Shown here in pieces: positions 38,182 through 62,747 of a DNA stretch of 64,000 nucleotides. Position 1 is the stretch's first letter; the number at the start of each line of letters is the position of its first letter. The translations under genes were made by a program, and so were the position numbers. This DNA comes from Nocardioides sp. GTDB taxonomy: Bacteria > Actinomycetota > Actinomycetes > Propionibacteriales > Nocardioidaceae. The notes beneath the pieces were generated by a model that was given only the letters and a program-made list of their open reading frames with translations, ran no database searches and was not told where the DNA came from. The stretch spans positions 1 to 64,000 of the forward strand of contig NZ_JAURVJ010000044.1 of NCBI RefSeq assembly GCF_030655615.1. The letters are read 5' to 3'.

Positions 38182-39162
38182 TCAGGGCCACGTCGTGCCG
38201 GTGGCGGCCGCGACGTAGTCGACGAAGGCCCGCCGCTCGGCGGGATCCCGCCGGCGCTGGACCGGGTAGGTGGTCGGGCGCGGCGCCCGGTCGTGCCAGA
38301 AGTGGTGGGTGCCGGAGGAGTCGGGGCGGGTCGCGACGAGCCAGACCGCCGTGTCGGCGCCGCCGGCCGCGTCTCGCAGCAGCGGGCCGATGACCTTCTC
38401 GAAGCCCGGCAGGCTGTCGGTGAGGCCCGCGGTCGCGGCCCAGCCGGGGTGGCAGCTCTCGATGCGCACCTGGCCACCGCGCAGCCGGTCGTTCCAGGCG
38501 TCGACGACCTCGACCTGCATCCGCTTGGTGCGGGCGTAGCCGCGCACGCCGTCGTAGGTCCCGTCGCGGTACTCGATCTCGTCGGGCGTGCTCCGCAGCC
38601 CGGCGCTGTACATCCCGCCCGACGACATCCACACCACGCTGCCCGGGTTGCCGGCCTCGGCGCCCAGGAGCGGGAGCAGCCGCTCGGTCATCAGGTGCGG
38701 CCCGAGCACGTGCACCGCGAGGGCGAGCTCGTGGCCCTGGGCCGACTCGGTCCGCTCGGGGACCATCACGCCCGCGTTGTGGACGAGGCCGCGCAGCGAG
38801 TCCACGCGGCCGGCCAGGTCGTCGCACCAGGCCCGGACGGCGTCGAGGTCACCCACGTCGCAGACCTCCTCGACGAGGTCGGCCGACGGCAGCGACCGGC
38901 GTACGTCGGACACGACGGCGGCGACCTTGTCGGGGTTGCGGCCCAGCACGTGCACGGTCGCCCCGAGCGCCGCGAACAGCGTCACCATGGCCTCGCCGAT
39001 GCCCGACGTCGCACCCGTGACGACCACCCGCCGCCCGGCGAGCGAGCCGGGCTCGGGGTCGGCCGGCCACCAGCGGCGCCGCAGGGCGGGGCCGACCCGG
39101 GTGTAGCCGAGGACGAGGGACCGGTCGAGGGCCCCGTCGAGGAGCGCGGTGAGTGCGGGCAC
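38182..39162 (-). CDS. SDR-family oxidoreductase
   Basis: RRVVVTGATSGIGEAMVTLFAALGATVHVLGRNPDK; LVHNAGVMVPERT. Confidence 0.9.
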   Translation of the reverse strand: MPALTALLDGALDRSLVLGYTRVGPALRRRWWPADPEPGSLAGRRVVVTGATSGIGEAMVTLFAALGATVHVLGRNPDKVAAVVSDVRRSLPSADLVEEVCDVGDLDAVRAWCDDLAGRVDSLRGLVHNAGVMVPERTESAQGHELALAVHVLGPHLMTERLLPLLGAEAGNPGSVVWMSSGGMYSAGLRSTPDEIEYRDGTYDGVRGYARTKRMQVEVVDAWNDRLRGGQVRIESCHPGWAATAGLTDSLPGFEKVIGPLLRDAAGGADTAVWLVATRPDSSGTHHFWHDRAPRPTTYPVQRRRDPAERRAFVDYVAAATGTTWP

Positions 39163-39224
39163 GCTGCCCAATCTACGAAGGGGCAGGTCGAGCGAGGTCG
39201 TGCAACGACGTGCAGAGTGAGAAA

Positions 39225-39263
39225 CCGTCCCCCGCTCTCCCCCCACGGTCGAGCGGGGGACGG
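39225..39263. terminator. Hairpin CCGTCCCCCGCTC-N13-GAGCGGGGGACGG
   Basis: Perfect 13-bp arms in the intergenic region. Confidence 0.5.
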
Positions 39264-39407
39264 CGATTTCAGGCTAACCGAGGGTTTCCGGCCCCGCGCC
39301 ACCCTCAACCCAAACATTTGCTCAAGGGAGACCTCAGGGCGCGGCCGGGTGCGGCGGTGGTTCGGGGTCCCGCTCCGGCTCCCGGCCGGACGACGTCAGG
39401 ACGTGGC

Positions 39408-39497
39408 AAGCGCCTCACCGTGACGGTCACCGCGTCGAACCCGGCCCACGTGGGCGGCTCGGCGACCACCGCGGCGGTCACGATCCCGAGGAAGTAG
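39408..39497 (+). pseudogene. C-terminal remnant of an Ig-like/repeat-type secreted protein
   Basis: KRLTVTVTASNPAHVGGSATTAAVTIPRK then stop, with no credible upstream coding region. Confidence 0.45.
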
Positions 39498-39521
39498 TCC
39501 GGGGCCGGTCCGTCAGCAACG

Positions 39522-39559
39522 GGAACAGGCCAGGAGCCCGAGGGCTCCTGGCCTGTTCC
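39522..39559 (+). terminator. Perfect 18-bp stem, 2-nt loop hairpin
   Basis: GGAACAGGCCAGGAGCCC-ga-GGGCTCCTGGCCTGTTCC 25 bp past the remnant stop. Confidence 0.8.
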
Positions 39560-39827
39560 TGTGTGTGTGAGCGATTCATGTCGGGAGGTCATGGACGGTT
39601 CGCGGTTCGGGCTCCCACGAGCCGTTGTGCTTGTCTCCCACGATTCGTTTGTGCAGGTCAGGGCGTTGTGGGCCGTCCACGGGCCGCCCGGTTTGGACGG
39701 TTTGAGCTACGACAGGTGTCCGGGTCCGGTTCTGCTTGCTGTGTTGTTTCGGGAGCTGGACGGGCCGTTTTGTTTGTGGCGTTCGATTGGGGGCGTGGAT
39801 CTCCCACGATCTGTTTTGGGTAATGCG

Positions 39828-39861
39828 AAAGGGACCGTCCCTGGTGGGGACGGTCCCTTTG
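39828..39861. terminator. Hairpin AAAGGGACCGTCCC...GGGACGGTCCCTTT at the end of the minus-strand operon
   Basis: Perfect 14-bp arms. Confidence 0.75.
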
Positions 39862-39897
39862 TGGTGAAGCTGGTTTGTGGTTGTTGAGGGTGTGCGG

Positions 39898-40269
39898 TCA
39901 AAGGCCGTTCCAGAAGAAGGTGTTCATGCCGGAGTGCATGCCTTTGATGTAGCTGCGGAGTTGGTCGGCGGTGAGGTGGTGGAGGTGTTCGCGTAGCTGT
40001 TCGAGGCGCTCCTGTGCGATTTCGTTTTCGGGGTGGTCGTCGCCGAATCGGCCGAGGGTGACTGAGAGGTCCCAGTCGTGTTCGCCGAGTTCTCGCCAGA
40101 GTGTGTTGGTGGGGTTTTGGTAGAGCGCGATGTTGCGGTTGCATTCCTCGATGAAGTCGAGTGGTGGTGTTGTGAGGGGTGGGATTTCGGGTTGGCCGTC
40201 GATGATTTCTTGCCAGGCTTCGTCGCGGTCTGCGTTGGCATGGTTGGTGTCGAGGTTGTAGTCGCTCAT
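39898..40269 (-). CDS. Small hypothetical protein of the recombinase/DDE operon (paralog f)
   Basis: MSDYNLDTNHANADRDEAWQEIID...LTADQLRSYIKGMHSGMNTFFWNGL; upstream GGAAAG. Confidence 0.65.
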   Translation of the reverse strand: MSDYNLDTNHANADRDEAWQEIIDGQPEIPPLTTPPLDFIEECNRNIALYQNPTNTLWRELGEHDWDLSVTLGRFGDDHPENEIAQERLEQLREHLHHLTADQLRSYIKGMHSGMNTFFWNGL

Positions 40270-40321
40270 GGGTCTTTCCGGTGGGTTTGTGGGGTGGGTT
40301 GGTTGGGATGGTGGGAGGCGG

Positions 40322-41008
40322 TTATCGACCGTTTGGGTAGATGAGGTCTTCGAGTTCGCGGGTTACGCCCGCGATGAAGTCGCGGAGTTGGTCTTCGTTC
40401 CATTCGATGAGGGGCGCGATGACGTCTTCGACGTTGTCGAAGGCGCGGTTGGCGAGGTCGGGTCGGTTGGAGATGTGGACGAGGGTGGATTCGATGAGGT
40501 GGCGGTACCAGGCGCGTCCGCGCTGGTATTCGGGCATGTGGGTGCCGAATTGGTCGGCGGGTGGTGCGGTGGTCATGGGGCTTCCTTTGGTTTGTTCGGA
40601 CGTTTCGGTGGGGCGGTGGCGCGGTTTGGTTATCGGCTGGTCGGTGGGTGTTGGGTACCGATGAGGCGGCGGTTGTCCGTAGGCCCGACCGGTTGCTTTC
40701 GGACCGGGCGGGAGTGTGCTGGCGTTGTCGCGCAGGTAGGCGCGTTTGCGGTCGACGTTTTGCTCGATTTCGGCGAGGGTTGTCTCGATGAGGCCGGTGA
40801 GCCGAGTTGGGTCAGAGCTCGCGACGGCGTGGGCGACGATTCGTCGTGCTGCTTTGAGGTGGCTGGCCGTTTCGTCTAGCCAGTTCTCGTTGTCGTCGTC
40901 GAGGGCGATGAGTGCGCGGGTGAGGTGGCATTTGAAGTGGATTCCTGCTCCTGTTGCCCAGTCAGCGGGTACGTATCGGCCGTTTGAGTCTTCTTTGTAA
41001 AACCTCAT
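40322..41008 (-). CDS. Hypothetical protein (paralog e); internal ATG with strong RBS at 40576
   Basis: MRFYKEDSNGRYVPADWATGAGIHFKCHLTRALIALDDDN...WNEDQLRDFIAGVTRELEDLIYPNGR; ATGA overlap with the upstream gene. Confidence 0.6.
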   Translation of the reverse strand: MRFYKEDSNGRYVPADWATGAGIHFKCHLTRALIALDDDNENWLDETASHLKAARRIVAHAVASSDPTRLTGLIETTLAEIEQNVDRKRAYLRDNASTLPPGPKATGRAYGQPPPHRYPTPTDQPITKPRHRPTETSEQTKGSPMTTAPPADQFGTHMPEYQRGRAWYRHLIESTLVHISNRPDLANRAFDNVEDVIAPLIEWNEDQLRDFIAGVTRELEDLIYPNGR

Positions 41009-41379
41009 TCGGGGTCTCCGAATACTCCGAGTACGTCGCGGAAGGGTCGGTTGCCGATTCGGGGTTCGACGATGAGTTCGCCGAGGAGCTCTAGGAGGGC
41101 GTCGTGGATGCCGTCGAGGACGTTGTTGAGTTCGTCGGGGGTCATTCGGGGGAAGGGCCGGATGATGCGGACGAGTTCTTCGAGGTGGTGTTCGTGGAGG
41201 TTGATGTCGTCGTGGGCTTCGGCGATGTCGCGCATGACGGCGATGTAGGCCTGGCCGCGTTCTGCGGGGTGGGTGTAGCCCCAGCGGCCGTGTAGTTCGT
41301 GGTGCTGCGGCTGCCTGGGGTTGTTGGCGGGCTGGTCGGCGGGCTGGTCGGCGGGCTGGTCGGGTTCGTGGTTGGTCAT
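41005..41379 (-). CDS. Small hypothetical protein (paralog d) with DQPA repeats
   Basis: MTNHEPDQPADQPADQPANNPRQ...MTPDELNNVLDGIHDALLELLGELIVEPRIGNRPF; upstream AGAAAGAAG. Confidence 0.65.
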   Translation of the reverse strand: MTNHEPDQPADQPADQPANNPRQPQHHELHGRWGYTHPAERGQAYIAVMRDIAEAHDDINLHEHHLEELVRIIRPFPRMTPDELNNVLDGIHDALLELLGELIVEPRIGNRPFRDVLGVFGDPE

Positions 41380-41598
41380 TGGCTTCTTTCTGAGGCGCGG
41401 GTTCTGGGTGTGCGGGTGGGTGGTGTTTGGGCGTGCGGGTCCCGCCGCCGAGCTGCGCGCGGTGCGGTGCACTTGGCGTGCAGCTCGGCGGTGGGGTTGC
41501 GGGGCCCCAGGTGGCTATCGGCCGGTTAGGTCAGTGGCGGCGGCCTGGGGTGCCCTGGTTGTAGGGGCGGGGGTGGCGGTGGTGACTGTTTGGCGGGG

Positions 41599-43770
41599 TC
41601 AGCGGCCCCTTGTGGGGCGGTTGGCGCCGGTTGTGGCGGTGCCGTCGGCGTTGAGGGCGGCGGCTCGTGCCTCGCGGTTGGCTTTGGCGGGTGGGGCGGG
41701 GATGACTCCGCCCTTTGCGGCGACCCTGGCGTCCCAGGACTCCATGACGCGTCGGTTGGTGGTGGCGACGCTCATGGCGATGGCAAGGGCGAAGGGGGCT
41801 GCTTTGCGGGGTGCGATGGCGCCGCGTGAGAGGTTCGCTCCGCCGTGGGGGCGCTTGAGGTAGTTGTTGTATCGCTCGTTGGCTGATCTGGGTGCGGTGT
41901 ACCAGTCCTCGTGTTCCCAGGTGCCGGGCATGAAGTCTTGCCAGGTCTTGAAGACGTCGAGGGGGATGTTGACGCGCATTTTTCCGCTGTCGTTGGAGCA
42001 GCAGGCGGGCCTCTTGTCGAGTGGGAGGTCGACGGGTGGGGCGGGGATTGCGGGGAGGTGGGCGAGGGCGGGGTCGGCGAAGTCGTCGAAGATGCGGCAG
42101 CGTGCGGTGCCTTGGATGGCGGGGCAGATGACGGTGACGCGCATGACGTTGTCGGGTGTGGGTGTGGGGACGCCGGGGTGGGTTTTGCGTTGGCCGCCGC
42201 GTGGGCGGTTGGCGTGTTCTTCGGGTCGTCCGTGGGTGGGCATGGTGGCGGCGGTGATGCGTCGCTCGAGCTTGGCGTGGGCGTCGAGTTCGGGTCCGGG
42301 GAGGAAGTTGCCGTCGTCGTCCTTGGGGATGCGGGGCTTGGTCTTCTCGAGCCATTTGCGGCTTTCGCCGGGGCAGAGGGGTCGGCCGTTGTAGATGTGG
42401 ATGCCGGGGGTGCGCTCGCCGTCGGGGTGGTTGATGGCTCCGACCTCGAAGAGGACGCGGCGGTCTTTGCGGTACTCCATGACCATGCCGTAGTGGCGTG
42501 CGTGGAGCTGGCGGTTGAGGTTGACCGCTTCGGTGTAGCCGCCGTCGACGATGACGTATTGGTTGCGGTTGGAAGGTCTTGGTGCGCGCAGCCGGTTGGT
42601 GTCGATGGCGTCCATGACGGTAAGGGCGGCTGAGCCGAGTCCGCCGGTGGGGTGGTGGATGCTGGCGGCGAGGCACAGGTCTGGGTTGGCGTGGGCCTGG
42701 TCGGGTCGGGATGCGGCGATGCCGAGGGTGACGCCGACGACGGCGGGTGCCATGCCTTTGTGCTGTCGGCTCTTGGCGTGGACTCGTGCGATTTGGTTGC
42801 CTGGTGCGGCGCCCTTGGGGAGGTCGCCGAGGCCGACTACGGCGTGGGTTTCGTCGATGGCGACGTGACCGTGGTGGTTGGCGAGGATCCCTTCGTGGAG
42901 GGGTGTGCCGGGGTGGCGCCGGTCGTTTTCGTGGTGGACGCTGGCGCCGATGATGGCGTTGAGGACCGCCCACTTGAGTTGGCGCTTGGGGATGAGGTCG
43001 GGGTGGGCTGCGGCCCTGGCGACTTCGGTGCGGCTGGGTCGGTCGGTTCCGCGATGGTTGGCGACGATGGGGGTGTCGTCCATGGCGGCGAAGGCTCGCT
43101 GGAACTCTTGCCAGATGCGCTGGTATTCGGCCTTGTTGGCTCGGACGGCCCGGTTGATGTCGGCGTTGGTGACGGGCTGGCCGGGCTTGGGGACTGGTCG
43201 GGCCATGGCGGCGAGGCGTTCGGGGGTGCGGAGGTGGGCGAGGCCGATGGCTGCCATCTGGGCGGGGGTGTAGCGGACCCAGAGGGTGTCGAAGAGTTCT
43301 TTGAGGGAGAACGGCCGGTGGCTGGCGACCATCTCGTACTGGGCGCACAAGAACCCGTGGACGGTGTAGGCGCCGGGTGGGGCTTGGTCGACTTCGACGC
43401 CTGCGCGGTCGGGGTCGTCGGGGTTGGTCGCGTTGCTGACGGTGCTTACCGGCTTGGGAGCGGTCGGCTGAGGCAGGTCGCCCAGGTCCTCCGGGTGACG
43501 CAGGTCGTCCGGGCCCTCCGGGTGACGCAGGTCGTCCGGGGCGTCCGGGTCGGTCGAGTCGTGCGGGTCGGTCGGGGCGTCCGGGTCGTCCAGGTCGTCC
43601 CAGTCGGCCGGGCCGTCCGGGCTATCCGCACCGTTCGGGGCGGGGATGGGCCCTGGGACCTGTCCGAGGAGCTCGGGGACCCGGGCGTGGGCCATGACAG
43701 CGACGGCGTCGGCGAGGAGTGCGTCGGTGTCGTGGTCGGAGACGTGGGTGGCGATGGTGTGGATGCTCAT
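41599..43770 (-). CDS. DDE (RNase H-fold) transposase-like protein
   Basis: GHVAIDETHAVVG, QYVIVDGGYTEAV, ANERYNNYLKRPHGGANLSRG as candidate D-D-E residues, plus a Cys-rich insertion; TGATG junction with the integrase stop. Confidence 0.65.
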   Translation of the reverse strand: MSIHTIATHVSDHDTDALLADAVAVMAHARVPELLGQVPGPIPAPNGADSPDGPADWDDLDDPDAPTDPHDSTDPDAPDDLRHPEGPDDLRHPEDLGDLPQPTAPKPVSTVSNATNPDDPDRAGVEVDQAPPGAYTVHGFLCAQYEMVASHRPFSLKELFDTLWVRYTPAQMAAIGLAHLRTPERLAAMARPVPKPGQPVTNADINRAVRANKAEYQRIWQEFQRAFAAMDDTPIVANHRGTDRPSRTEVARAAAHPDLIPKRQLKWAVLNAIIGASVHHENDRRHPGTPLHEGILANHHGHVAIDETHAVVGLGDLPKGAAPGNQIARVHAKSRQHKGMAPAVVGVTLGIAASRPDQAHANPDLCLAASIHHPTGGLGSAALTVMDAIDTNRLRAPRPSNRNQYVIVDGGYTEAVNLNRQLHARHYGMVMEYRKDRRVLFEVGAINHPDGERTPGIHIYNGRPLCPGESRKWLEKTKPRIPKDDDGNFLPGPELDAHAKLERRITAATMPTHGRPEEHANRPRGGQRKTHPGVPTPTPDNVMRVTVICPAIQGTARCRIFDDFADPALAHLPAIPAPPVDLPLDKRPACCSNDSGKMRVNIPLDVFKTWQDFMPGTWEHEDWYTAPRSANERYNNYLKRPHGGANLSRGAIAPRKAAPFALAIAMSVATTNRRVMESWDARVAAKGGVIPAPPAKANREARAAALNADGTATTGANRPTRGR

Positions 43771-45101
43771 CAGGCCACCTGCGCCCGGTTGTAGGCCGCG
43801 TCGAAGCACCGGTAGGTGTCGTCGCTGCTGAGGTGCGGCATGTGAACCAGCAGGTCGGAGGGGAGGTTTGAGTCCTTGCCGATGCCTGCGACCTGGCTGA
43901 CCGCGTTGTAGGGGATCCCTGCGACAAGGGCCTGGGTGAGCCAGGTGTGACGCGCCCGGGCGGCCTTGAAGTCAGCGAAGACGGTGCTGCGGGCCCGCAT
44001 CTTCGGCACGAGCGATGAGATGGCGTCTGCACGGTCGGCGAGGAACGTGGGACGGAACAGGTAGTCGTCGAACCGCAGTTCGCGGCTGCGGGTCAGGAGC
44101 CACTGGCCGTACTGGCCGTAGACCGGGACGTGGCGGACCCACATGCCGCCGCTGATCACTTCGAGGACGACACGGCGGCCGACCTGGGTGACCTGGCGGG
44201 CCTTGAAGGCGTGCACCTCGTCGCTTCGGATGCCGCCGCCGAAGGTCAAGGAGAGAAGCGACCGCGATTCGGCCCCGACCCAGTCGTCGATGGCGCAGGC
44301 CGCGGTCCACATGCGGTCTCGTGAGCGGCTGCTGTAGGGCGCGCTGGCTGCCTTGCGGGTCCCTCGACGTCGGGGGGTTCCCTGGCGGGCCAGGCGACGA
44401 AGTTGGGAGGCGTAGGTGTCTCGGGTCTGGTCGGTGACGCCGCTCTTCTCGAAGTTGAGGTAGTCGGCGAGGGCGTCCTCGTTGAGGTCGCGGTCGGGCC
44501 TGAAGGTCGAGTCGGGGGTGTTGTGAAGGCACCACCGCGCGAACGAGGTTCCGATCGTCATCATCGAACGGTCCGAGACGAAGGAGGTGAAGGAGACCTG
44601 GCAGATCAGTTCGATGACGGTGGCCTTCACGGCGGCGACGTCGTGCTTCGGGCCTTCGGGAAACATGGCTTGGAGAGCTGCTCGACGGACGTCGTCACCG
44701 ACGGTGTCGCCCTCGGTCAGGAGCCGGAACTCGGCAGCCTGAGTGCTGGAACCGGCGGCGGTGTCGGTCCGGCCGATCTGTGCCGCCGGTGGGGTGGTGC
44801 CGTGCTCGGTCGTGGCGGTCACGGCTCCGGGTGTCGCCACGGCGGTCGTCCCGGCGGTCGTCCCGGCGGTCGCCCCGGCGGTCGCCGTGTTGGAGGTGTG
44901 GGCTGGGAGGACGACGTCGCCGGAGCCTTCTCGGCCTGTGTTCGATGCCGCCGTCGTGGGCGAGGGGCGATCCGTGGGGGGTGTCGCCACGCTTGAGGCG
45001 GAGGCGGATGCGGCTGCTGCTCGGGCGCGAATCATGGGGTCGTCTGCGTCGCGCTGAGCGATCTGGGCCGGGGTGAGGCGCTTGCGTGCGTTCTTGGTCA
45101 T
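43770..45101 (-). CDS. Tyrosine recombinase/integrase-like protein
   Basis: LLSLTFGGGIRSDEVHAFK (Box I-like Arg), FKAARARHTWLTQALVAGIPYNAVSQVAGI (RH motif, first His replaced), DDTYRCFDAAY (candidate Tyr). Confidence 0.65.
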   Translation of the reverse strand: MTKNARKRLTPAQIAQRDADDPMIRARAAAASASASSVATPPTDRPSPTTAASNTGREGSGDVVLPAHTSNTATAGATAGTTAGTTAVATPGAVTATTEHGTTPPAAQIGRTDTAAGSSTQAAEFRLLTEGDTVGDDVRRAALQAMFPEGPKHDVAAVKATVIELICQVSFTSFVSDRSMMTIGTSFARWCLHNTPDSTFRPDRDLNEDALADYLNFEKSGVTDQTRDTYASQLRRLARQGTPRRRGTRKAASAPYSSRSRDRMWTAACAIDDWVGAESRSLLSLTFGGGIRSDEVHAFKARQVTQVGRRVVLEVISGGMWVRHVPVYGQYGQWLLTRSRELRFDDYLFRPTFLADRADAISSLVPKMRARSTVFADFKAARARHTWLTQALVAGIPYNAVSQVAGIGKDSNLPSDLLVHMPHLSSDDTYRCFDAAYNRAQVA

Positions 45102-45409
45102 CGCAGGTCCCCATCGCTGGCAACGGGCGAGCCGTGTCCGAGGTCCGCGAGGTACGCCAGGTACTCGAGGCGCTGCTCGTCGGTCGCCGCTGAACCCGTC
45201 ACGAGGGTGGCGATCCGGGAGAGTTGGTTGCGCCTGGCTCGGCTTACGGTCTGTGCGGCGGGGGGTTCTGCGGACTGCTTGGCCTTGGAGGCGTCGTAGT
45301 CGTCGAGGACGTCCAGGATGAAGCCGGTTGCGGCCAGGGCGTCCAATACGTCGCGGTGCGACCTGTCGACGTTGACCGGCAGAGTCTGTGGAGCGAGAGT
45401 TGTACTCAT
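45098..45409 (-). CDS. Small hypothetical protein, first gene of the recombinase/DDE operon
   Basis: MSTTLAPQTLPVNVDRSHRDVLDALAATGFILDVLDDYD...; ATGA overlap with the integrase-like gene. Confidence 0.6.
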   Translation of the reverse strand: MSTTLAPQTLPVNVDRSHRDVLDALAATGFILDVLDDYDASKAKQSAEPPAAQTVSRARRNQLSRIATLVTGSAATDEQRLEYLAYLADLGHGSPVASDGDLR

Positions 45410-45540
45410 CGAAGCGGTTTCCTAGTTCTGTTTCGGTGGATCCCGGTCCTGGTAAGGCCGGGGTGCAACTTCGGGCAGGCGCGCTGATGCGCCGGTCCGG
45501 GGAGGCGGTCGCCGCGTCAACGGCGGCCGTCTCCTTCGCA

Positions 45541-45570
45541 CCACGATGTAACGGATCCGCTACATCGTGG
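45541..45570. repeat. 30-bp near-perfect palindrome CCACGATGTAACGGATCCGCTACATCGTGG
   Basis: 10-bp perfect arms plus inner CGGATCCG; a single mismatched pair. Confidence 0.85.
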
Positions 45571-45935: not shown

Positions 45936-46020
45936 CGTCCGGGGCCAGAACCCCGATTACGCGTCCGAAGATCCGGCCAAACGACGTGGCCGATCGCCCC
46001 GCTTCACCACAGGAGTGAGC

Positions 46021-46527
46021 ATGCTTCCCCCCGGCGTCACCTACGACAAGGCCAGACACCCACCCGAGTCAGCCCCCATCGGGGAGCAGCAACTGATCAC
46101 CGCACCGGACGCCGGGCTCAAACGCCGACGAGCAGCCGACGGCACCCCCTACTGCGCCTGCTGCGACGACACCCTGCTCCCCTCCAAAGGGCCCGGACGC
46201 CCCCGCGCCACCTGCGGGGCCTGCACCGAAGACCGCCGCAGAGCCAGGGACACCGCCTACAACGACCGCAAGCAAGCCGAAAGAGCCGCCCGGTCCTCAG
46301 GCGGCCAACCCCACGTCGGCCTCACCCGGGCCGACGTCCAAGAACTCTCCACCCTCATCGACCAACTCTCACTCGCCGTCGGACGGTCCTCGACCCACTT
46401 CCAGTCACAACACGAAGGCACCTGGCAACACGCACTCCTGCTTTGCTCCAAAGACCTCGTCGCCTGGCGCGAAAGCGCCCTCCCACCCGTCGTCACCCGC
46501 CGATACGAAAACACCGACACCGACTGA
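46021..46527 (+). CDS. Zinc-ribbon-containing small protein
   Basis: PYCACCDDTLLPSKGPGRPRATCGACTEDRRR (CxxC...CxxC); upstream AGGAG. Confidence 0.65.
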   Translation: MLPPGVTYDKARHPPESAPIGEQQLITAPDAGLKRRRAADGTPYCACCDDTLLPSKGPGRPRATCGACTEDRRRARDTAYNDRKQAERAARSSGGQPHVGLTRADVQELSTLIDQLSLAVGRSSTHFQSQHEGTWQHALLLCSKDLVAWRESALPPVVTRRYENTDTD

Positions 46528-46780
46528 CCCTCAGCACCACGCGAGGTCGATTGCTCAACACGGCGGGTGCCCCCCGACGTCAATACGACCACCAAGGCGC
46601 CCAACCGCGACATGTGGTCGACGAGCAGCAGCGGGATCGACCCATTGCGCCCTGCGACGTCCACTCATGAGTGACGTCGCGGCCCGAAGGTCTGCGGTTA
46701 GCACGTCGTGTCGTTTGCGGCCTATCCCCCGACCTCACTCCTCGGTTGGGCTTCGACCCCTCGCACACCGCCGAGGTAAC

Positions 46781-47626
46781 TCAGGTGTCGGCGTCCCGCC
46801 GCAACTGTTGACGTCTTTCAATCTCCGAAGGCAACTTGGCTCGGCACTCGCAGCCCTCGCCGAGCGAACAACCCATCGAATGGAACGGGACGTCGAGTTC
46901 GTCCCAGCAGCGAAGCCGGAACCTCGGGCCGGGACCTTCGTCCTCGCTCAGCGGACCACCTACGACCGCAGCACCCGGCCACTTGGCGACCACATGGCGC
47001 ATGAGGAAGAACGCGACTACCTGGTGGCGGCAGTGCGGATCGTCGTTGACCCGGATCATGTCCAAGCTGACTTGCGGAGGTGAAGCCTTTAAATGTCGGA
47101 GCCCAAGAGACACTGATCCCAGCGAATGCCCCGCCCGCATGCAGTGGAGGACCTGCCTCGCGCTCCCCCGCGTCTGCGTCACCGGCGCCCAGTCGGCCTC
47201 AAACTCAAACGCGTCGTACAGAGATGGCGCATCGCCAGGCTGGAATCCAGGAAGCCCGAGGCGCACGCGCGCCGTCTCGGCCGCTACAGGTCCCGCTTCG
47301 CCCAACTCGGACGGGGCATGTTTGTTGGTGGGCCTGGGGAGGCCAGTCTGAGCGGACCAGGACTCCGCTTCAGCGGTACGAAGGTTCGAGTGTCGCAGGG
47401 GGTGCCGTCCGTTCACGGCGCGTGCGAGGTCCGTTGCGAAGCCATGGCGGCGGCTGTCCGGTCGAGTCCAGATGATGCGTATCGGCGATTCGTCTTCGAA
47501 CGCTGAAGTAAGCCACGTCAGTACGCATGCAACGCGTCCGTGCGAGATCAGGACCGCCCCGTCATCCCCGTAAATCAACGACTTCACGAAGCGGACGTCG
47601 AGACCGGGATTCACGTGCCCAGTCAA
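46781..47626 (-). CDS. Hypothetical protein with GNAT-like segment; start uncertain
   Basis: SPIRIIWTRPDSRRHGFATDLARAVN resembles the acetyl-CoA-binding region. Confidence 0.5.
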   Translation of the reverse strand: MTGHVNPGLDVRFVKSLIYGDDGAVLISHGRVACVLTWLTSAFEDESPIRIIWTRPDSRRHGFATDLARAVNGRHPLRHSNLRTAEAESWSAQTGLPRPTNKHAPSELGEAGPVAAETARVRLGLPGFQPGDAPSLYDAFEFEADWAPVTQTRGSARQVLHCMRAGHSLGSVSLGLRHLKASPPQVSLDMIRVNDDPHCRHQVVAFFLMRHVVAKWPGAAVVGGPLSEDEGPGPRFRLRCWDELDVPFHSMGCSLGEGCECRAKLPSEIERRQQLRRDADT

Positions 47627-47671
47627 TCAGAATGAACGACCGCGCCACGGCCGTGCTCGACGACGACAGGC

Positions 47672-48319
47672 TCATATGGACGGTGTGTACAGCTCCAACT
47701 GAAGCTCGCGGGCATCGATGACCCATTCATCCTCAGCACGAGTGTTGTAGCGGGCCAGCACCAGTTGCGGAGGGACGACCGTCGTCCAAACCCCGCCACG
47801 GCTTGCGCCTGCCGTGGCACCAGCAAAGTCAGCGGCAACATGAATGTCGGTCGTCCAGGCCAACCCACGGGCACGTTCAGTCGGTGCTCCACGCCAGACC
47901 TGTGTGGGCGAGGTCGGCTGCTCGAACGGCTCGTCGGGGTCGCATGTGAAACCGACGACCCTGAACGCCGCCACCCAGTCGTCGGTACCGATCGCTGCCT
48001 CCGGCGAGTTGTCCAGGCTCCAAGCCCTAGACAGCGCCCTATCAGCCGCGCGAGGCGCCAGGCAACGTTCAGAGACAGCGGTCAGAGCGATCGTCCGGCA
48101 CGCATTGAGCCATCCAGATTGTGCGCTGTCGTCCTCGCTGCGTTGCGGGACCCCGTCGAGGACTTCGTCGAAGAGCCATTCATCCTTTGCGCCGAAGGAC
48201 CGTGATCCGGCGGCCTGCCTGAGAATCCGATCCAGGAACTGCTGCTCCTCCGGGAGCAGTTCGAATGACGGCACGGCTGATCGTAGGGCGACAGACCCGG
48301 GCGCCACGGCAACGGGCAC
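47672..48319 (-). CDS. ADP-ribosyltransferase (ART)-like protein
   Basis: TQVWRGAPTERARGLAWTTDIHVAADFAG...VVPPQLVLARYNTRAEDEWVIDAREL: R / W-T-T / E-x-E spacing. Confidence 0.5.
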   Translation of the reverse strand: MPVAVAPGSVALRSAVPSFELLPEEQQFLDRILRQAAGSRSFGAKDEWLFDEVLDGVPQRSEDDSAQSGWLNACRTIALTAVSERCLAPRAADRALSRAWSLDNSPEAAIGTDDWVAAFRVVGFTCDPDEPFEQPTSPTQVWRGAPTERARGLAWTTDIHVAADFAGATAGASRGGVWTTVVPPQLVLARYNTRAEDEWVIDARELQLELYTPSI

Positions 48320-48374
48320 GGGTGTCAGCGGTCAGCACGCTGACTTCTGTCGACGTCCTGTGGATGCTGCGACG

Positions 48375-49292
48375 ATGGTCTCCATGCACGGAGACACGAC
48401 ACCTGATTCCGGGACCGCCGTCGTCGAGCCTGGCCGGGCAGCTTCAGGCCATGGGGTTCTGCGGCTGAGTCACGTGCTCGAGTCCGCCGGTATCGCCGCC
48501 GAGGACGCCATCGTCATCAGGCACGTGTTCAAGACCGATGCGGACCACCTTCGCGGACCCGAGGACCTCGCCGACCGTGACAAGTTGCTTCTCTACACCT
48601 CACGGCAGGGCGTCGACGGCAAGGCGTTCCCAGCCAAGCCGCCGCGTTACTGGATCGTGTGCATCGGTGAAGGCCGCAACGCTCGTCTGATCACCGTCTA
48701 CGACAACCACGGCGAAGTGGAACGCTGGACTGCCGAGGATGGGTTCGAGGGCCGCACTTTCGACCTGCAAGAAACCGACCTGCTCGACACCTACCGACAA
48801 CGGCTGACCATCACCTGGTCCAACCCACGCCGCTGGTGTGTGTACGGCCCCACCGCAGCCAAGGGCGAAGTGGTGTCCCTGGCCGACCCGGTCGCCGAAC
48901 CGTTCCCTGGATTCGACTCCCTCATCTTGACCCAGGCGCAGCTACGCACGGTCGTCAACGACCCGCTCTACCAACACTGGCGCACCGCGCTGGAGTCGGT
49001 TCAAGGCATCTACCTCATGACCGATTCCAGCGACGGCCGCCACTATGTCGGCCAAACCGCTGGGGGCCAACGCATCCTCGGCCGCTGGTCGCAGTACGCA
49101 GGCAACGGGCACGGCGGTAATAAGGAGCTGCTCAGCCTGTTCCGCGACGACCCCCTTCACGCCGAGCACTTCGTCTACAGTCTGCTACGCGTGTTCGGGC
49201 CGTCTGTGGACCCCGAAGTCGTGTACGCCGCCGAGTCTCACTACAAGAACGCACTCATGACCCGACAACCGTTCGGCCTGAACTACAACTAA
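48375..49292 (+). CDS. GIY-YIG nuclease-family protein
   Basis: C-terminal GIYLMTDSSDGRHYVGQTAGGQRILGRWSQYA...AESHYKNALMTRQPFGLNYN. Confidence 0.82.
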   Translation: MVSMHGDTTPDSGTAVVEPGRAASGHGVLRLSHVLESAGIAAEDAIVIRHVFKTDADHLRGPEDLADRDKLLLYTSRQGVDGKAFPAKPPRYWIVCIGEGRNARLITVYDNHGEVERWTAEDGFEGRTFDLQETDLLDTYRQRLTITWSNPRRWCVYGPTAAKGEVVSLADPVAEPFPGFDSLILTQAQLRTVVNDPLYQHWRTALESVQGIYLMTDSSDGRHYVGQTAGGQRILGRWSQYAGNGHGGNKELLSLFRDDPLHAEHFVYSLLRVFGPSVDPEVVYAAESHYKNALMTRQPFGLNYN

Positions 49293-49351
49293 GTGCCGTA
49301 GCAAAACCTGTGATCGACATTCCGGCACACGTCGCGCCTCCCGGCCAACGC

Positions 49352-50110
49352 TCACGCCCGCTCAACGGTGGCGGAGTCCACCCACCGCGCTAGGACGCTG
49401 AAAGCGGCGAGCTGCTCCAACGCGACCTGTTCGTCGACGACCACGATCTCGTGGGACGTGGGGTTGCGGATCCCTGCGTACAGACCTTCCGCAAGAGTTC
49501 GAGCGCCACGGTGAACGCTCTGGTAAGTCTTGCTTCCGTCGTCCTGCATCGGGCGTAGGCGAGGTGCCCCGGGTTTGGGCGCATCGAGAGTGAACGCTTG
49601 GGCAAAGAGGTCTCCCTCAGAGATGTCGCGACGGCTTAGTTTCGCCTGTGCCTCCGTGTTGACCCGAATCGCGGACTGGGTGACAGCCACGGCGTGGTGT
49701 CCGGTTCGCCAGTAGGGAGCTGCAGCCTCCCAAACCCACGGGTGCAACCTTGACGCGTCCATTTCTGGCGCGTCGTCGCCGAGCCTGTCTCGGATCTCGT
49801 CTTCGCGCGTCAACATAAGCCGAGCTCTCGCCGCCCACTCCTGCAAGTGGGTCCAGCGACGTCGCTGCGCGACAGCGGGTTCCTTGGGCCAACCCGGAAT
49901 GACGCGGTCGATGATTTGCTCGACCACATGGGCTTGAGCCGCGGCGTCTGTTGATGAGCCACGTTGGACCGTGCCCATGTAGGCCGCGCTTGCTCGGTCG
50001 TCGGGGACTACCCGAGTGGTGATTGATAGGAAGAGGTCGATCTCACCGATAGCCCAGGTCTTGTCCATGCGAGTCACTCCGACAGCATGCACGAGGTCAC
50101 CGGCACTCAA
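49352..50110 (-). CDS. TIGR02391-like (Ymh-type) protein; start may be ATG at 50068
   Basis: LHPWVWEAAAPYWRTGHHAVAVTQSAIRVNTEAQAKLSRRDISEGDLFAQAFTLDAPKPGAPRLRP...LAEGLYAGIRNPTSHE. Confidence 0.78.
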   Translation of the reverse strand: MSAGDLVHAVGVTRMDKTWAIGEIDLFLSITTRVVPDDRASAAYMGTVQRGSSTDAAAQAHVVEQIIDRVIPGWPKEPAVAQRRRWTHLQEWAARARLMLTREDEIRDRLGDDAPEMDASRLHPWVWEAAAPYWRTGHHAVAVTQSAIRVNTEAQAKLSRRDISEGDLFAQAFTLDAPKPGAPRLRPMQDDGSKTYQSVHRGARTLAEGLYAGIRNPTSHEIVVVDEQVALEQLAAFSVLARWVDSATVERA

Positions 50111-50411
50111 TTGCGTTAGCCCGGCTCCGACTCGGACGGAGGCTCGCGAGCCACTTATCCGGCCGCTTGACGGTCAGACCCGCGTACTGGTGTGGATGGG
50201 AGACGCTTCACCGACCGCGATGTCGCCAGAGGGCGGCGGGGCGACCTTGCTCCTTAGTTAGGAGCTCTGTCGGCCGCCTCGTTGGATCAGTTGTGCTGAC
50301 TGCATTTGAGGCGTTCCACTCTCGTCACCGCCGCAGCTCGTGGACGGAGAGGGCGGAGGGTTGAACTGACCGACTGTCCGAACCGGGGCGTCCCTCACGT
50401 GCCAGTTTGCT

Positions 50412-50606
50412 CTAGGTCACAAGTCGAACGAGCTCGCGGATGAGAACCCCGACTCCCGCGCCGCCTCCGACAACGGCTGCAACTGCACCGGAGCTCCTCA
50501 GTACCTTGAGGCGGAGCGTTGGCCCCCAGCCCTGAAGCGCCAGTGCGCGGTTGGTTTTCTCCCGCTCGATGAGCAGGCGATAGAGCACTTCGCGCTTGAC
50601 CATCAT
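50412..50606 (-). CDS. Small putative membrane peptide (64 aa)
   Basis: MMVKREVLYRLLIEREKTNRALALQGWGPTLRLKVLRSSGAVAAVVGGGAGVGVLIRELVRLVT; upstream AAGGAG. Confidence 0.55.
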   Translation of the reverse strand: MMVKREVLYRLLIEREKTNRALALQGWGPTLRLKVLRSSGAVAAVVGGGAGVGVLIRELVRLVT

Positions 50607-50822
50607 CGTCTCCTTCTGCGCTCATGGTTGAGGGTTCAGGGGCGAGCCAACTGACTTGTGTCGGCTTTCGTGCCACGTCCCGTGCGCCTCTACAACAACT
50701 AGGGCCGGGACAAGCGACATCTGTCCCACGAAACTTGACTGAAGGTTTTCCTACGTTGGAGGGACGTTTGCGCGAGCGACTGCCCCTATAAGTTTCGCAG
50801 GAGCAGCGACGACGGGGACGGG

Positions 50823-51569
50823 ATGACGACAGCCGGTGCATTGAGGGGAAGCTCTGGCCCTGAGCCAGCAGACCAGCATGCGCTCAATCTGCAGCGCGAT
50901 GGTGTCTGGGTGCTTGCCGTGAAGGAGGCTGGTTACTCGGGAGAGCCATTCGACCTGGGTGCAGACCTACTGATCGGATCGGCGGTCGAGCGCGTCAAGG
51001 CCATGGTCTTGACGGGACGGATGTTCGACGAGTGCGCCCGGCTGGGCCGCCCCGTCCCAAGTGCGACGGCCGGACTGAGACAACTGCGAGCGTGCCCCTC
51101 TGACCTGGACCTGTTGGCGTGGCACGTCGTCGAGCGGGCTTGGGCACGGTTCCTCCGCGACGCTCTGATGAGCTCGAAGTGGAACCCGGAAGGGGGCGCG
51201 ACCCTCGTTCAATGGTTGGTCGGCACCTGCATCCAAGAGTTCAAGGACAGCTACAAGCAATGGCTCCCTGGGTATCTGCGCCGAAGCGACATACTCGTGG
51301 ACCCCACCTCGATGACTGAGCTGTTGACGAACCCCAGCGGCATAGCCGCCGGAAGAGATGCCCCGCCGTTCTACCTAGATGAGGAGGCGGAGGACCTCCT
51401 AGAGCAGCTTCCTGACATCACGCAGCAGACGGTAGTACTGATTGCGCTGGGCTATTCAAAGACCGAGGTCGCAGCGATACTCGGGATCACACCCAGCGCG
51501 GTCCGAAGCCAACTAGCCAGAGCCCGCACTGCTCTCGACGAGCGGTATCCAGGACGGAGGCGGGCATGA
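50823..51569 (+). CDS. Sigma-70-like factor with C-terminal region 4 HTH
   Basis: LLEQLPDITQQTVVLIALGYSKTEVAAILGITPSAVRSQLARARTALDERYPG. Confidence 0.7.
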   Translation: MTTAGALRGSSGPEPADQHALNLQRDGVWVLAVKEAGYSGEPFDLGADLLIGSAVERVKAMVLTGRMFDECARLGRPVPSATAGLRQLRACPSDLDLLAWHVVERAWARFLRDALMSSKWNPEGGATLVQWLVGTCIQEFKDSYKQWLPGYLRRSDILVDPTSMTELLTNPSGIAAGRDAPPFYLDEEAEDLLEQLPDITQQTVVLIALGYSKTEVAAILGITPSAVRSQLARARTALDERYPGRRRA

Positions 51570-52066
51570 GCCCAATAGAGTCCGACATTGCCCCAGATCG
51601 CGCTTTGGTCGCGGGAGCTTCCTTCGCCGAGCCAGCAAACGTGGAGCTGGCAGAGCGCGCGTCTCTGACTCGGATCCGCGGTATGCGACGTGGAGTCGAG
51701 GAAGCCGTCCCCGCCACGGCTGTCGCCCAGCCCGAAGCCCTGCCGACAGAACTCACCGACTTCAACCTGCTCGTGAGCCGCTTCAAGGGCGAGCTGACGG
51801 CTCACTGCTACCGGATGAGCGGGTCCGCGCAGGAGGCTGAGGACCTGGTGCAAGAGACGTTCATGCGGGCTTGGACGCTCAGCTCTACTTTCCGCAACCG
51901 CAGCTCGGTGCGCACCTGGCTTTACCGGATCGCCACCAACGTCTGCCTGACGAACCTCGAACTCAAAGACCGCGCTCCAAAGCCCGCCGAGGTGAAGACC
52001 GAGAGCGGGTATCCATGGCAGCGGGAACTCGTTCAGGAATTCATCGAAGGAGGCCCTGGGGCGTGA
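51566..52066 (+). CDS. ECF sigma region 2 protein lacking region 4
   Basis: LVSRFKGELTAHCYRMSGSAQEAEDLVQETFMRAWTLSSTFRNRSSVRTWLYRIATNVCLTNLE; stops soon after; ATGA overlap with the preceding gene. Confidence 0.75.
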   Translation: MSPIESDIAPDRALVAGASFAEPANVELAERASLTRIRGMRRGVEEAVPATAVAQPEALPTELTDFNLLVSRFKGELTAHCYRMSGSAQEAEDLVQETFMRAWTLSSTFRNRSSVRTWLYRIATNVCLTNLELKDRAPKPAEVKTESGYPWQRELVQEFIEGGPGA

Positions 52067-52310
52067 CGACGGGCGTCCTGCCTCCAATTGCGAGCTTGAC
52101 GCACGTACTGGGATGGGGCGGCCCAACCTGAACCGTGCAGGGCGGCTCAGCAGGCTGGGCGCCGGGCGTGAGCGGCCGCATTGTTGGCAGGCGCTGCGCA
52201 CTTGCTGACCCGCCGGGGTCCGCCTTCGCTACTTCGATTGCCTGGGAAGGTTCCGAATCGTGGCGGGCCATCCGAGCTGCTCGTCGATCCCTAGCCTCGA
52301 TCGCACAAAA

Positions 52311-52456
52311 CGTCGGACCGGGCGTTTCCGCCCGGCCCGACGCTTCCCTCGTCGTGCGCCCCCCTACCGCGCACGAGGGCCCCGGGCCTTCAAGGTGCCC
52401 GGGGGTTCGTGGGTCGGCTTCGGTCAGCCGACGTGGTCCCTGCTCAGTCGACTGAG
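52311..52456. repeat. Cluster of five consecutive stem-loops/palindromes
   Basis: Hairpins at 52311-52342, 52346-52379, 52380-52404, 52413-52432 and palindrome CTCAGTCGACTGAG 52443-52456. Confidence 0.7.
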
Positions 52457-52620
52457 GCCTGAACTGTCGGCAGGAGCAGCGCCGAGTCACCGTGGACCTT
52501 CAAGGTGCCCGGCTCGAACTTGCCGTCAGAGCGGCACACGGAGATCGCGAGACGCAGGTGGGCGTCGTCAGGGACCGCGACCCGGGTCGGGAGGAACTCG
52601 ATGAATGCCTGCGCTACGCG
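52444..52620 (-). pseudogene. 3' remnant of a protein-coding gene
   Basis: RVAQAFIEFLPTRVAVPDDAHLRLAISVCRSDGKFEPGTLKVHGDSALLLPTVQASVD-stop; upstream in-frame stop with no suitable start. Confidence 0.45.
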
Positions 52621-52644
52621 TCACGCGTGGGGACCCTGTGGTGC

Positions 52645-53685
52645 TCAGGTGGCGAGGCGACCGGTCGCGCGGAGCACGTGGACCAGGAAGCCCGCCATTC
52701 GCACGAAGAGGTAGTCCACCTCAAGGTCTTCGACGTGGTCCTTATTCGTTTCGAAGTGGCGGATCTGCATTCGGTTGCCGATCTCGGTGAGATTGCGGGA
52801 CTCTGCGTCGAGGGCATCGCGCATGTAGCCGGAGGCCGCCCGGTCGAGCAGTGCCTTCGCCTGTAGCGCCTTGTTGCTGCCCGGTTCCAGCGTCTTCAGC
52901 CGTTCGAACGCGTCCCACAGTCGCTCCAGCCCTGCCCGCAGGTCATCGGGGTGGCGTGATAGGAAACGAGTGCGGGCCTCCACGATGAGCTCATCCAGTC
53001 GCGCATCGCCGGTGTCCGGCATCAGGTCGGCAACGACTTGTCGCCCTTCCGGGGGGCCGAGACGGGCGATCGTCAGGTCGGCTCGAAGCTCGAAAGCCAC
53101 ACCGCCGCGAGAGAGGAGCTCGTTGACCTCATCGCGATACCTCGAACGTCCGGCCGCACGATCGAACTTGAGCTCGTCATGGCTGAAGAACGGGTGGTAG
53201 CGGGCCTTTGAAGGCTTCGACACGCGCTGGGCCGCGAACTCGATCAGGTCGAAGATCGTCGCCGTCGCGGGTGCCTCCTTCGGCGCAGGCCAGGGCAGCG
53301 AGGGGACCAGTGCCTGAACCGTATCGAAGAAATTCGTACGGTTGGTTCCGATGGTTCCGCGTCCGTCGGGGCACGGTTCGGGGAACGCTTCTGCGAACCA
53401 GTCCGCGTCCAGTTTGACGTTCACCAGGCTGTGAAGTCCCCGCCAGGTCGAGTCGGGAACCTCTGTAGCGGTGCGGGGCACCGTTCCGCCGGTGCGATCG
53501 CTGTAGAACGAAGCGGGAACCATCTGGCCACGTTCGCAGATTCCTGGCCGACACACCTCTTGCGGCCCGGACGGACCGCGTGAGTCCACAGAAATTTCGA
53601 GCATTCGGCAGAGTCCGCATGGTCTGAGCTGGATCGAGATCTGCGATCGGCGGGGCGGGAGGGCCACCCGCTCAGCCCGCTCCAT
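52645..53685 (-). CDS. Hypothetical protein divergent from vsr (abortive-infection-like C-terminus, tentative)
   Basis: MERAERVALPPRRSQISIQLRPCGLC...IGNRMQIRHFETNKDHVEDLEVDYLFVRMAGFLVHVL. Confidence 0.6.
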   Translation of the reverse strand: MERAERVALPPRRSQISIQLRPCGLCRMLEISVDSRGPSGPQEVCRPGICERGQMVPASFYSDRTGGTVPRTATEVPDSTWRGLHSLVNVKLDADWFAEAFPEPCPDGRGTIGTNRTNFFDTVQALVPSLPWPAPKEAPATATIFDLIEFAAQRVSKPSKARYHPFFSHDELKFDRAAGRSRYRDEVNELLSRGGVAFELRADLTIARLGPPEGRQVVADLMPDTGDARLDELIVEARTRFLSRHPDDLRAGLERLWDAFERLKTLEPGSNKALQAKALLDRAASGYMRDALDAESRNLTEIGNRMQIRHFETNKDHVEDLEVDYLFVRMAGFLVHVLRATGRLAT

Positions 53686-53761
53686 CCTCAGGCAACCCGT
53701 GTTGCTGTCGTAGCCATGCTGGGTGAAGTGGGAGGGCTTGCTCTCGGCGTACGGTCGCGAC

Positions 53762-54250
53762 ATGTCTCGTCCCGGGCCGGGTGGTCGACGACCACAGGCA
53801 TCATCGAAAGATGCGACGAGCTCACCTTCTGGCTCGTGGGCCAGCAGTCCTGCGACCCGGAAGGTCATGCTCGGCAACCGGAGGCGCGACACGAAGCCCG
53901 AGTTGCGGGTCCGTAGTCGGCTGCACGCTCGAGGGTTGCGATACCTCGTCGACAAGGCGCCCATCCCGACAGTTCGCAGCCGTGCCGACCTGGTGTTTCG
54001 GGGGTCGCGGGTAGCCGTGTATATCGACGGATGCTTCTGGCATGGGTGCCCTTTACACCACACCGTGGCCAAGTCGAACCAGGACTACTGGGCCGCCAAG
54101 CTTGCAGCGAACCGTGAGCGGGATGAACGGGTAGTGCGGACACTCGAAGCTGCTGGGTGGCTGCCGCTACGGTTCTGGGAACACGAGGATCCGGATTTGG
54201 TGGCCTCCGAGGTCGAAAGGTGCGTGCGCGCTCGGGGCGCATGGAGGTAG
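53762..54250 (+). CDS. vsr: Very-short-patch-repair-type endonuclease
   Basis: RDTKPELRVRSRLHARGLRYLVDKAPIPTVRSRADLVFRGSRVAVYIDGCFWHGCPLHHTVAKSNQDYWAAKLAANRERDERVVRTLEAAGWLPLRFWEHE. Confidence 0.9.
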   Translation: MSRPGPGGRRPQASSKDATSSPSGSWASSPATRKVMLGNRRRDTKPELRVRSRLHARGLRYLVDKAPIPTVRSRADLVFRGSRVAVYIDGCFWHGCPLHHTVAKSNQDYWAAKLAANRERDERVVRTLEAAGWLPLRFWEHEDPDLVASEVERCVRARGAWR

Positions 54251-54448
54251 CCCCGTGCCACTAGGCGGTGGTGGCGCCTTGGTCAGCCGGACGACAACGT
54301 GTCCTGCAAAGCCCGCGTAGAGTGCACAGGACGACCAGCAACAGTGCCAGCTATTCGTTCGCCCTGGCGTTGTCTCCGCCGGGGTTCTTCGTTTGGGCAG
54401 GACCGGTTCGGGTGCGGACGCGACGCGGGTGCAACTTCAAAGGTGGCC

Positions 54449-54486
54449 TTGACAAGGCGGATACGGCAGTGAACCCTCAAGGTTCA
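54449..54486 (+). promoter_or_regulatory. Candidate promoter TTGACA with overlapping inverted repeat TGAACC-N5-GGTTCA
   Basis: Upstream of the 54669-61941 operon; inverted repeat at 54470-54486. Confidence 0.4.
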
Positions 54487-54668
54487 ATATCCATCTGCTC
54501 GTGCCTCACCCAGGTGCACGGAGTTTCGGCGCAGCCAGACTGTCTCGATGCTCCCGTCCTAGGTAGCGGTCCGACCGGAGGGGCTTTTTCATACCCAGAG
54601 CACATTGCGGTGTGTTCTGACCGTCCCGCCGATCACCGGCACGGGCTCGTCGACCCCAGGAGGTCAAC

Positions 54669-58765: not shown

Positions 58766-58841
58766 GGGCGAGTGCCTCAGGGTGGTGTCACCAGGACCGC
58801 CCGGATTGCGTCCAAATTCGGTGCTCGAGTAGCGTCGGCCT

Positions 58842-59978
58842 GTGACGACGGCGGAGCGGGAGCAGCAGCATCCGCTCCGCGCGAAAGCCAAGCCCACTGT
58901 CGATCTCCTGCGACCGCGAACGCTCAAGGTGGTCGACTTGTTCGCTGGTTGTGGAGGGCTGTCGTTGGGCGCAGAGATGGCCGCTACCGCTCTTCGTCGT
59001 CGGCTCGACGTGCGGCTTGCGGTCGACTTCGAAGCGGCGGCTACTCAGGTGTATCGATCGAACTTCGCCGCAGCGCGACGTGTCTTAACCAAGCCGGTCG
59101 AAGAAGTCCTGTCAGTTTGGACTGCACCCGAATTGACCGACGGCGAGACCCGCCACGCACGCAGGGTCGGGCGCGTCGATGTGCTCCTGGGTGGCCCGCC
59201 GTGCCAGGGACACAGCAACCTGAACAACCACACGCGGCGCAACGATCCGAAGAACGCGCTGTACCTTTACATGGTTCGCGCTGCCCGTGTGTTCGCCCCG
59301 TCAGCGGTCATCATCGAGAACGTCCCCGCCATCCTCCACGACACCTTCAACGGCTCGAATGTCGTCGAGATCGCAAGGGTCGAGTTGAAAGCCCTCGGAT
59401 ACGAGGTGCACGACCAGGTAATCCCGCTCGTCGACCTGGGTGTGGCACAACGACGGAAGCGTCATGTCTTACTTGCCACCAAGAAACCGACCGATTCTCC
59501 AGCGACAGTCCTTGAGGGGCTGATCGCCGAACCGACGCCGGTCCGTGACCTGCGTTGGGCGATCAAGGATCTCGAGACCGCGTCGGGCGTCGGTTGGGAC
59601 ACGCCACCCAAGGCAAGTCCGGCGAACTCCGAGCGCATGCAGTACCTGGTGGACTCTGGTAATCACGACCTGCCCAATGAGTTGCGGCCCGTGTGCCATC
59701 AGGGCTTGCATTCCTACGTCTCCATGTACGGGCGTCTGAAGTGGGACGAGCCCGCCCAGACGATTACGAGCGGCTTCGGAAGCATCGGTCAGGGCCGGTA
59801 CATGCATCCTGGGCAGAAGCGTGCTCTGACGGCGCATGAGGCAGCACGCATACAGGGGTTCCCTGACTACTTCCGGTTCGGTGAGGTCCAGAAGCGCAGC
59901 GACCTGGCCACGATGATCGGCAACGCAGTCCCACCTCAGCTCTCAGAGCGGATCATCCTCGCGTTGCACGGGTGGTGA
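58842..59978 (+). CDS. DNA cytosine-5 methyltransferase
   Basis: VDLFAGCGGLSLG, GGPPCQGHSNLNN, IIENVPAI, AQRRKRHVLLA, QGFPDYFRFG...MIGNAVPPQLSERI. Confidence 0.95.
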   Translation: MTTAEREQQHPLRAKAKPTVDLLRPRTLKVVDLFAGCGGLSLGAEMAATALRRRLDVRLAVDFEAAATQVYRSNFAAARRVLTKPVEEVLSVWTAPELTDGETRHARRVGRVDVLLGGPPCQGHSNLNNHTRRNDPKNALYLYMVRAARVFAPSAVIIENVPAILHDTFNGSNVVEIARVELKALGYEVHDQVIPLVDLGVAQRRKRHVLLATKKPTDSPATVLEGLIAEPTPVRDLRWAIKDLETASGVGWDTPPKASPANSERMQYLVDSGNHDLPNELRPVCHQGLHSYVSMYGRLKWDEPAQTITSGFGSIGQGRYMHPGQKRALTAHEAARIQGFPDYFRFGEVQKRSDLATMIGNAVPPQLSERIILALHGW

Positions 59979-62588: not shown

Positions 62589-62747
62589 CAAGATCTCCCT
62601 CCAGGGAGGCGGCCGGTGGCGCAACGGATGTCCGGATACTCGGTCCTCGCCGACATGCGTCCGACTGGACGGATTCTCACCACATACCGGTCTCGACGCG
62701 TCCTGCGGCCGGGCAGCTGATGCCTGGTGCCGCGGCCATCGTGTTCA

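Follow-up and report, generated by a model that had tools for sequence, protein, structure and literature searches.

The locus examined here, at positions 39828-45570 of a 64,000-nucleotide stretch of a Nocardioides contig (the window; it begins at the first base of the contig, so the two share one numbering), raises the question of why a tyrosine-recombinase-like protein and a DDE-transposase-like protein should be encoded in one operon, and what such an operon would move. A preliminary description of the sequence had proposed that two chemistries are joined there in a single recombination machine, possibly of a new type of mobile element. The gene arrangement is as first described: the genes lie on the minus strand, and neighbours overlap by ATGA or TGATG. 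At the head of the operon is a 103-aa ORF (45098-45409) that was not found in relatives; it overlaps by ATGA (45098-45101) the gene for a 443-aa protein (43770-45101), which in turn overlaps by TGATG (43768-43772) the gene for a 723-aa protein (41599-43770). There follow, on the same strand, a 155-aa ORF (41005-41472) and a 228-aa ORF (40322-41008) that overlap by ATGA (41005-41008), and a 123-aa ORF (39898-40269) without conservation in related elements. A perfect 14-bp hairpin, with arms at 39828-39841 and 39847-39860 (minus strand), closes the 3' side and is probably the operon terminator, and a near-perfect 30-bp palindrome upstream of the operon, CCACGATGTAACGGATCCGCTACATCGTGG (45541-45570), is a possible candidate operator. 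Searched one by one against Pfam, NCBIfam and PHROGs, the window proteins, the 103-aa and 123-aa ORFs included, gave no significant match. The three small ORFs had been called paralogues, a claim that found weak support: the 155-aa and 228-aa ORFs, which may be distant paralogues, scored above all 300 shuffled comparisons, the score of the 123-aa and 155-aa ORFs was reached by 5 of 300 shuffles and is thus weak, and the similarity of the 123-aa and 228-aa ORFs was not significant in the same test with 300 shuffles.

The 443-aa protein has, by several lines of comparison, the fold of a tyrosine recombinase, as had been claimed. Relatives of the protein matched Phage_integrase weakly (E 1.4e-4 to 4e-3), the family profile matched an XerC-like chain (4a8e) at 2e-4, and the AlphaFold model, with a pLDDT of about 90 in the catalytic domain, retrieved XerH as its best Foldseek match (3e-6, probability 1.00), with XerA, Cre and the Tn1549 integrase also found. 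The catalytic residues, in contrast, are largely lost. Among the R-H-R-H-Y positions, Arg II alone is conserved throughout the family (47 of 47), and Arg I is present in 13, His II in 1 and His III in none of the 47-48 sequences; the aligned tyrosine occurs in 6 of 48, and no conserved tyrosine lies near the C-terminus in these 47-48 sequences. The window protein retains Arg I and Arg II and has Ala, Ile and Leu in place of His II, His III and the aligned tyrosine, and the tyrosine of a DDTYR stretch a few residues further on is not conserved. Its catalytic domain is of full length, and residues 1-140 contain no cysteine. Recombinase activity is therefore probably dead, and the proposal of two chemistries in one machine had to be abandoned. 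At three loci, two recombinase-like genes were observed in tandem (L070, 10392-11219 and 9303-10370; L076, 3736-4866 and 4863-6542; L232, 5558-6472 and 6658-7812), and three others (L075, L077 and L013) carry longer, fused versions of the protein.

The DDE assignment of the 723-aa protein also stood, here from its relatives. One relative matched DDE_Tnp_1 (E 6e-8), and 2 of 16 family members matched the IS1182 profile, the best at 1.8e-4, which is below the curated cut-off of that family; the window protein itself gave no match to this profile, and 'IS1182-like' is used here for a resemblance only. The triad D306, D409 and E632 is invariant across the family, which also has an R-x3-E-x6-K motif, a cysteine-rich insertion and conserved cysteines. 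Profile searches with the protein and its relatives indicated that the transposase is not of the rve type, and hhalign gave no match between the DDE alignment and an ISAs1-like transposase. Structure prediction, one of the routes suggested at the outset, was informative for the XerH-like 443-aa protein but not here: the model of the 723-aa protein had a mean pLDDT of 38 and was unusable, and an RNase H-like fold is putative, by sequence matches. On this basis we take the protein to be a DDE transposase, and of the two paired proteins only its triad looks active.

A search in other actinobacteria, also suggested in the preliminary description, found the pair far beyond the source genome. Among the genomes searched, 6 of 198 in the order, 14 of 346 in the class and 7 of 119 in a single genus encode a relative of the DDE protein (counts that include the source or query genome). 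Almost all intact loci also encode a homologue of the 443-aa protein immediately upstream and in the same orientation, the two genes often overlapping by 4 bp. An additional scan yielded 27 loci, 3 of them found previously, in Planomonospora, Thermomonospora, Actinomadura, Wenjunlia, many Streptomyces, an acidimicrobiium and Agromyces; the intact ones again carry the pair, and the choice of tRNA among them is biased because the seeds were tRNA-Leu elements. Dozens of actinobacteria thus carry the conserved pair as neighbouring genes on one strand, in two homologous subtypes (hhalign E 4e-33), that of the window and another referred to below as the first subtype. Searches of plasmids and phages by tblastn and scans of viral contigs found zero relatives of the window proteins.

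What the pair belongs to became apparent from the ends of the islands that contain it. The interval first taken for the element is its mobility module only: the element begins further left, at 39,569, and extends to contig position 104,390, so that it measures 64.8 kb and reaches far beyond the window, and it ends at a tRNA-Leu(CAG) gene (104394-104477) with which the contig (G000:C154) itself ends. The left end was located by means of this tRNA gene and a 5-bp target duplication, whose right copy lies at 39564-39568 (TGTGT on the plus strand, ACACA on the minus strand) and whose partner, outside the window at contig positions 104391-104395, is at the 3' end of the tRNA gene; this duplication falls in a short CA-repeat and is weak if taken alone. 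The right end (39569-39620) runs from the tip GAGCGATTCATG, for which relatives have the conserved tip TGACC..TGA..CACACA, to the outermost end repeat, and the tip weakly resembles the left end GAGCGGTTCAGG at contig position ~104,390. Two copies of the end repeat CTCCCACGA lie 23 bp apart (39612-39620 and 39635-39643), with an outlying third 166 bp inward (39801-39809). The spacing of 22-23 bp is conserved in relatives, though the repeat sequences differ, and a spacing of about 165 bp to the outlying repeat is also seen in G503, G644, G382 and G109. No inverted or att-type repeats were detected close to the pair, the far ends being much more distant, and no strong match to the window-type right end was obtained in inverted orientation.

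Another contig of the source genome (G000:C57) ends in fhaA and a tRNA-Leu gene identical in sequence to that of the window contig, so that the island very probably has fhaA/tRNA-Leu on one side and the SDR gene (38182-39246) on the other; in G245, an empty site, the tRNA-Leu gene directly adjoins the SDR gene. Immediately beyond the shared tRNA gene, several bases differ between the two contigs, which suggests either variation among strains or a faulty assembly at the island's left end. Separating the SDR gene from the element end is a stretch (39326-39562) with the 3' end of an unrelated gene and a terminator hairpin, and the synteny of the window with its relatives ends near 39326.

In all seven elements of the window subtype, the same 5-mer is found at the tRNA 3' end and beyond the right end (ACACT, ACATT, ACAAC, ACAGA, ACAAA, ACAGC and ACACA), and the true pairing alone among 5,040 permutations scores 35 of 35. 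In four of the seven the two sites remain similar beyond the 5-mer, into a copy of the tRNA terminator, but in G503 and G633 the similarity stops. The tRNA is always Leu(CAG), at the island end opposite the pair, and terminal inverted repeats are weak in this subtype. A decayed copy with window-type end repeats was observed in G153 (L010 and L016) at the same tRNA-Leu site, extending to about contig position 1611000; its island holds a type I restriction-type system, and a second, different element end directly adjoins the tRNA gene.

Of 32 distinct first-subtype loci with enough DNA (counted by hand), 28 have a tRNA or tmRNA 3' end about 90-280 bp from the stop codon of the DDE gene, which faces it, and no tRNA was seen at the other 4; we roughly estimate the chance of such a placement at a random position to be well under 1%. 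The targets comprise tRNA-Leu(CAG), Ser, Ala, Gly and Val as well as tmRNA. Comparison with empty tmRNA sites bounded the element of G128 at 20.8 kb, flanked on both sides by TCAGT and with clear inverted repeats GAGGGCTTCCCCGAAATG and CATTTCGGGAAAGCCCTC that match at 16-17 of 18 positions; the terminal inverted repeats of G026 match at 17 of 17. Four further elements have matching ends and the 5-bp duplications TCGGC (G026), AGAGT (G451), GTGGG (G537) and TGGTG (G305), the mappings of G537 and G305 being less certain in view of a small length offset between the two ends, and for G474, G348, G372, G389 and G263 the left end was not found in the DNA examined. G128 and G451 also retain older element ends beside the newer one, an arrangement that would result if every new copy inserted directly at the tRNA. 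A further end type, AATTCTGCGAAG repeated at about 22 bp and then ACCCC, was observed to abut the tmRNA gene in L093, L095, L100 and L105 and at about 2906260-2906325 of G128:C1; such ends may mark further members of this transposon family or remnants.

The islands of which the pair marks one end are about 11-65 kb long and sit precisely at a tRNA or tmRNA 3' end, and 12 mapped elements (7 of the window subtype and 5 of the first) carry 5-bp target duplications. The duplication consists, in each subtype, of the final 2-3 nt of the tRNA gene together with the 2-3 nt that follow, so that the tRNA stays intact. It is improbable, in our judgement, that the recombinase-like protein is an active, unusual tyrosine integrase that inserts these islands, with the DDE protein as an accessory or passenger. 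tRNA and tmRNA 3' ends are classic integrase sites, and the window protein does keep two arginines and has a tyrosine that lies a few residues beyond the aligned position; against this stand the family-wide losses of both histidines and of any conserved C-terminal tyrosine, together with an intact DDE triad. Exact 5-bp duplications that differ between near-identical elements (ACAAA in G503 and ACAAC in G644, 93% identical) and the inverted repeats of the first subtype likewise fit DDE chemistry.

In the window island the cargo (46015-64000, continuing to contig position 104,390) has a low GC3 compared with the flanking genes and contains defence genes; it includes genes for UzuA-like (47844-49292) and AbiJ/PDC-S32-like (52645-54072) proteins, an SNF2 helicase (56897-58765), a C5 methylase (58842-59978) and a PD-T7-1-like protein; in G128, the other island surveyed, a type I methyltransferase and an Orf5/HEC-06-like gene were found, the latter between the mapped ends. 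Two overlapping ORFs of the window island (50823-52066), with sigma-70 region 4 followed by region 2 in the reverse of the usual order, are predicted to encode a split sigma factor. The window island also contains canonical integrase genes at contig positions 81592-82113 and 94013-94525 (within regions 81529-82740 and 93812-94942 of G000:C154, beyond the window), the second adjoining a tRNA-Val gene at 93812-93885, and these might suggest that ordinary tRNA-gene islands, moved by such integrases, carry the pair as a passenger. We regard this as very improbable: Phage_integrase and Resolvase domains are absent from the other 11 of the 12 mapped elements, all mapped elements end shortly past the pair, and the end repeats are conserved along with the pair across distant genomes. 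Because there are two such integrase genes, one of them beside tRNA-Val, the window island was probably enlarged by nested integrative elements.

We therefore think it quite probable that these genes form the transposition module of a large, cargo-carrying DDE transposon directed to tRNA and tmRNA 3' ends, probably with a dead recombinase as its target selector. The DDE protein would probably cut and join the element ends with a 5-bp stagger, giving the 5-bp target duplications, and the recombinase-fold protein would probably bind DNA and bring the transposase to the tRNA terminus. From the sequences we infer DDE catalysis, target choice by the dead recombinase and the present-day mobility of the elements. 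The division of labour could differ within the same transposon, with the recombinase-like protein binding the ends or regulating the operon and the DDE protein recognizing the tRNA. End repeats spaced at two helical turns (22 bp) do resemble protein-binding sites, a palindrome lies upstream of the operon, and the tie between the recombinase fold and the tRNA is itself our inference. Nevertheless, we hold this arrangement to be unlikely, as target selection by a dead tyrosine recombinase has a precedent in TnsF, and an inherited taste for tRNA 3' ends is plausible in a protein of this fold, tyrosine integrases commonly using such ends.

The proposed transposon resembles several known systems in part. 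With the islands and ICEs of tyrosine integrases it shares the tRNA or tmRNA 3' target, the intact tRNA, large cargo and tandem accretion, but it differs from them in its unconserved catalytic tyrosine and histidines, its DDE gene, its 5-bp duplications and, in one subtype, its inverted repeats. With IS1182/IS4-like insertion sequences (DDE_Tnp_1) it has in common the DDE triad, the R-x3-E-x6-K spacing and weak profile matches; to our knowledge, those elements are short, have one gene and lack a recombinase-like partner, whereas the elements described here measure 11-65 kb, have a second conserved gene and target tRNA genes. The initial premise that DDE and tyrosine enzymes belong to different classes of element holds normally, but the two do co-occur elsewhere. 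Tn3 elements of the Tn4430 type also combine a DDE transposase with a tyrosine recombinase, TnpI; unlike the 443-aa protein, TnpI is active, as a cointegrate resolvase, and the Tn3 transposase is of a different family.

The closest parallel is TnsF of the Tn7-like element Tn6022, an inactivated, XerH-like tyrosine recombinase with N-terminal zinc fingers and a truncated catalytic domain, which selects the comM target and acts through TniQ and TnsABC (Faure et al. 2023, PMC10293859). In both systems an inactivated XerH-like fold is linked to a DDE transposition module in an element with large cargo, and one type of chromosomal site is chosen, the targeting role of the recombinase-like protein being presumed in our case. 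In contrast to TnsF, the window protein lacks N-terminal zinc fingers and has a full-length catalytic domain, the sites are tRNA and tmRNA 3' ends rather than comM, and the transposase is IS1182-like, not TnsB (rve-type) as in Tn6022 and other Tn7-like elements; neither TnsC nor TniQ was found among the scanned genes, which are a part of the elements' cargo. A DDE transposon homing to tRNA-Leu is also known in CyCAST, a Tn7-like CAST in which TnsD selects the site and insertion occurs about 30-33 nt beyond the tRNA gene (PMC10293859); here, unlike in CyCAST, the duplication overlaps the gene's last nucleotides. The use of a dead tyrosine recombinase for targeting is thus already known in Tn7-like elements. 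In the open-licence literature, TnsF/Tsy alone came up as a related idea, and nothing was found on a family of IS1182-like transposons that employs a dead tyrosine recombinase at the 3' ends of tRNA genes, an absence that is weak evidence of novelty. The possibility of a new type of mobile element raised at the outset is borne out to the extent that the pair belongs to an apparently undescribed family of tRNA-end DDE transposons with a probably dead recombinase.

We lean towards regarding these elements as a new, Tn7-independent DDE family in which an IS-like transposase and a dead recombinase, without an AAA+ regulator, would suffice for precise insertion at tRNA 3' termini and would spread defence islands among actinobacteria. 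Islands of this kind are easily misfiled, because the window proteins, when searched singly, match no curated family. If this reading is true, a dead integrase has been recruited as the targeting subunit of a DDE transposase outside Tn7, and the pair would be a compact, two-protein candidate for inserting large DNA at specific sites. The movement of some defence islands at actinobacterial tRNA genes in the absence of a working integrase would then be explained as well.
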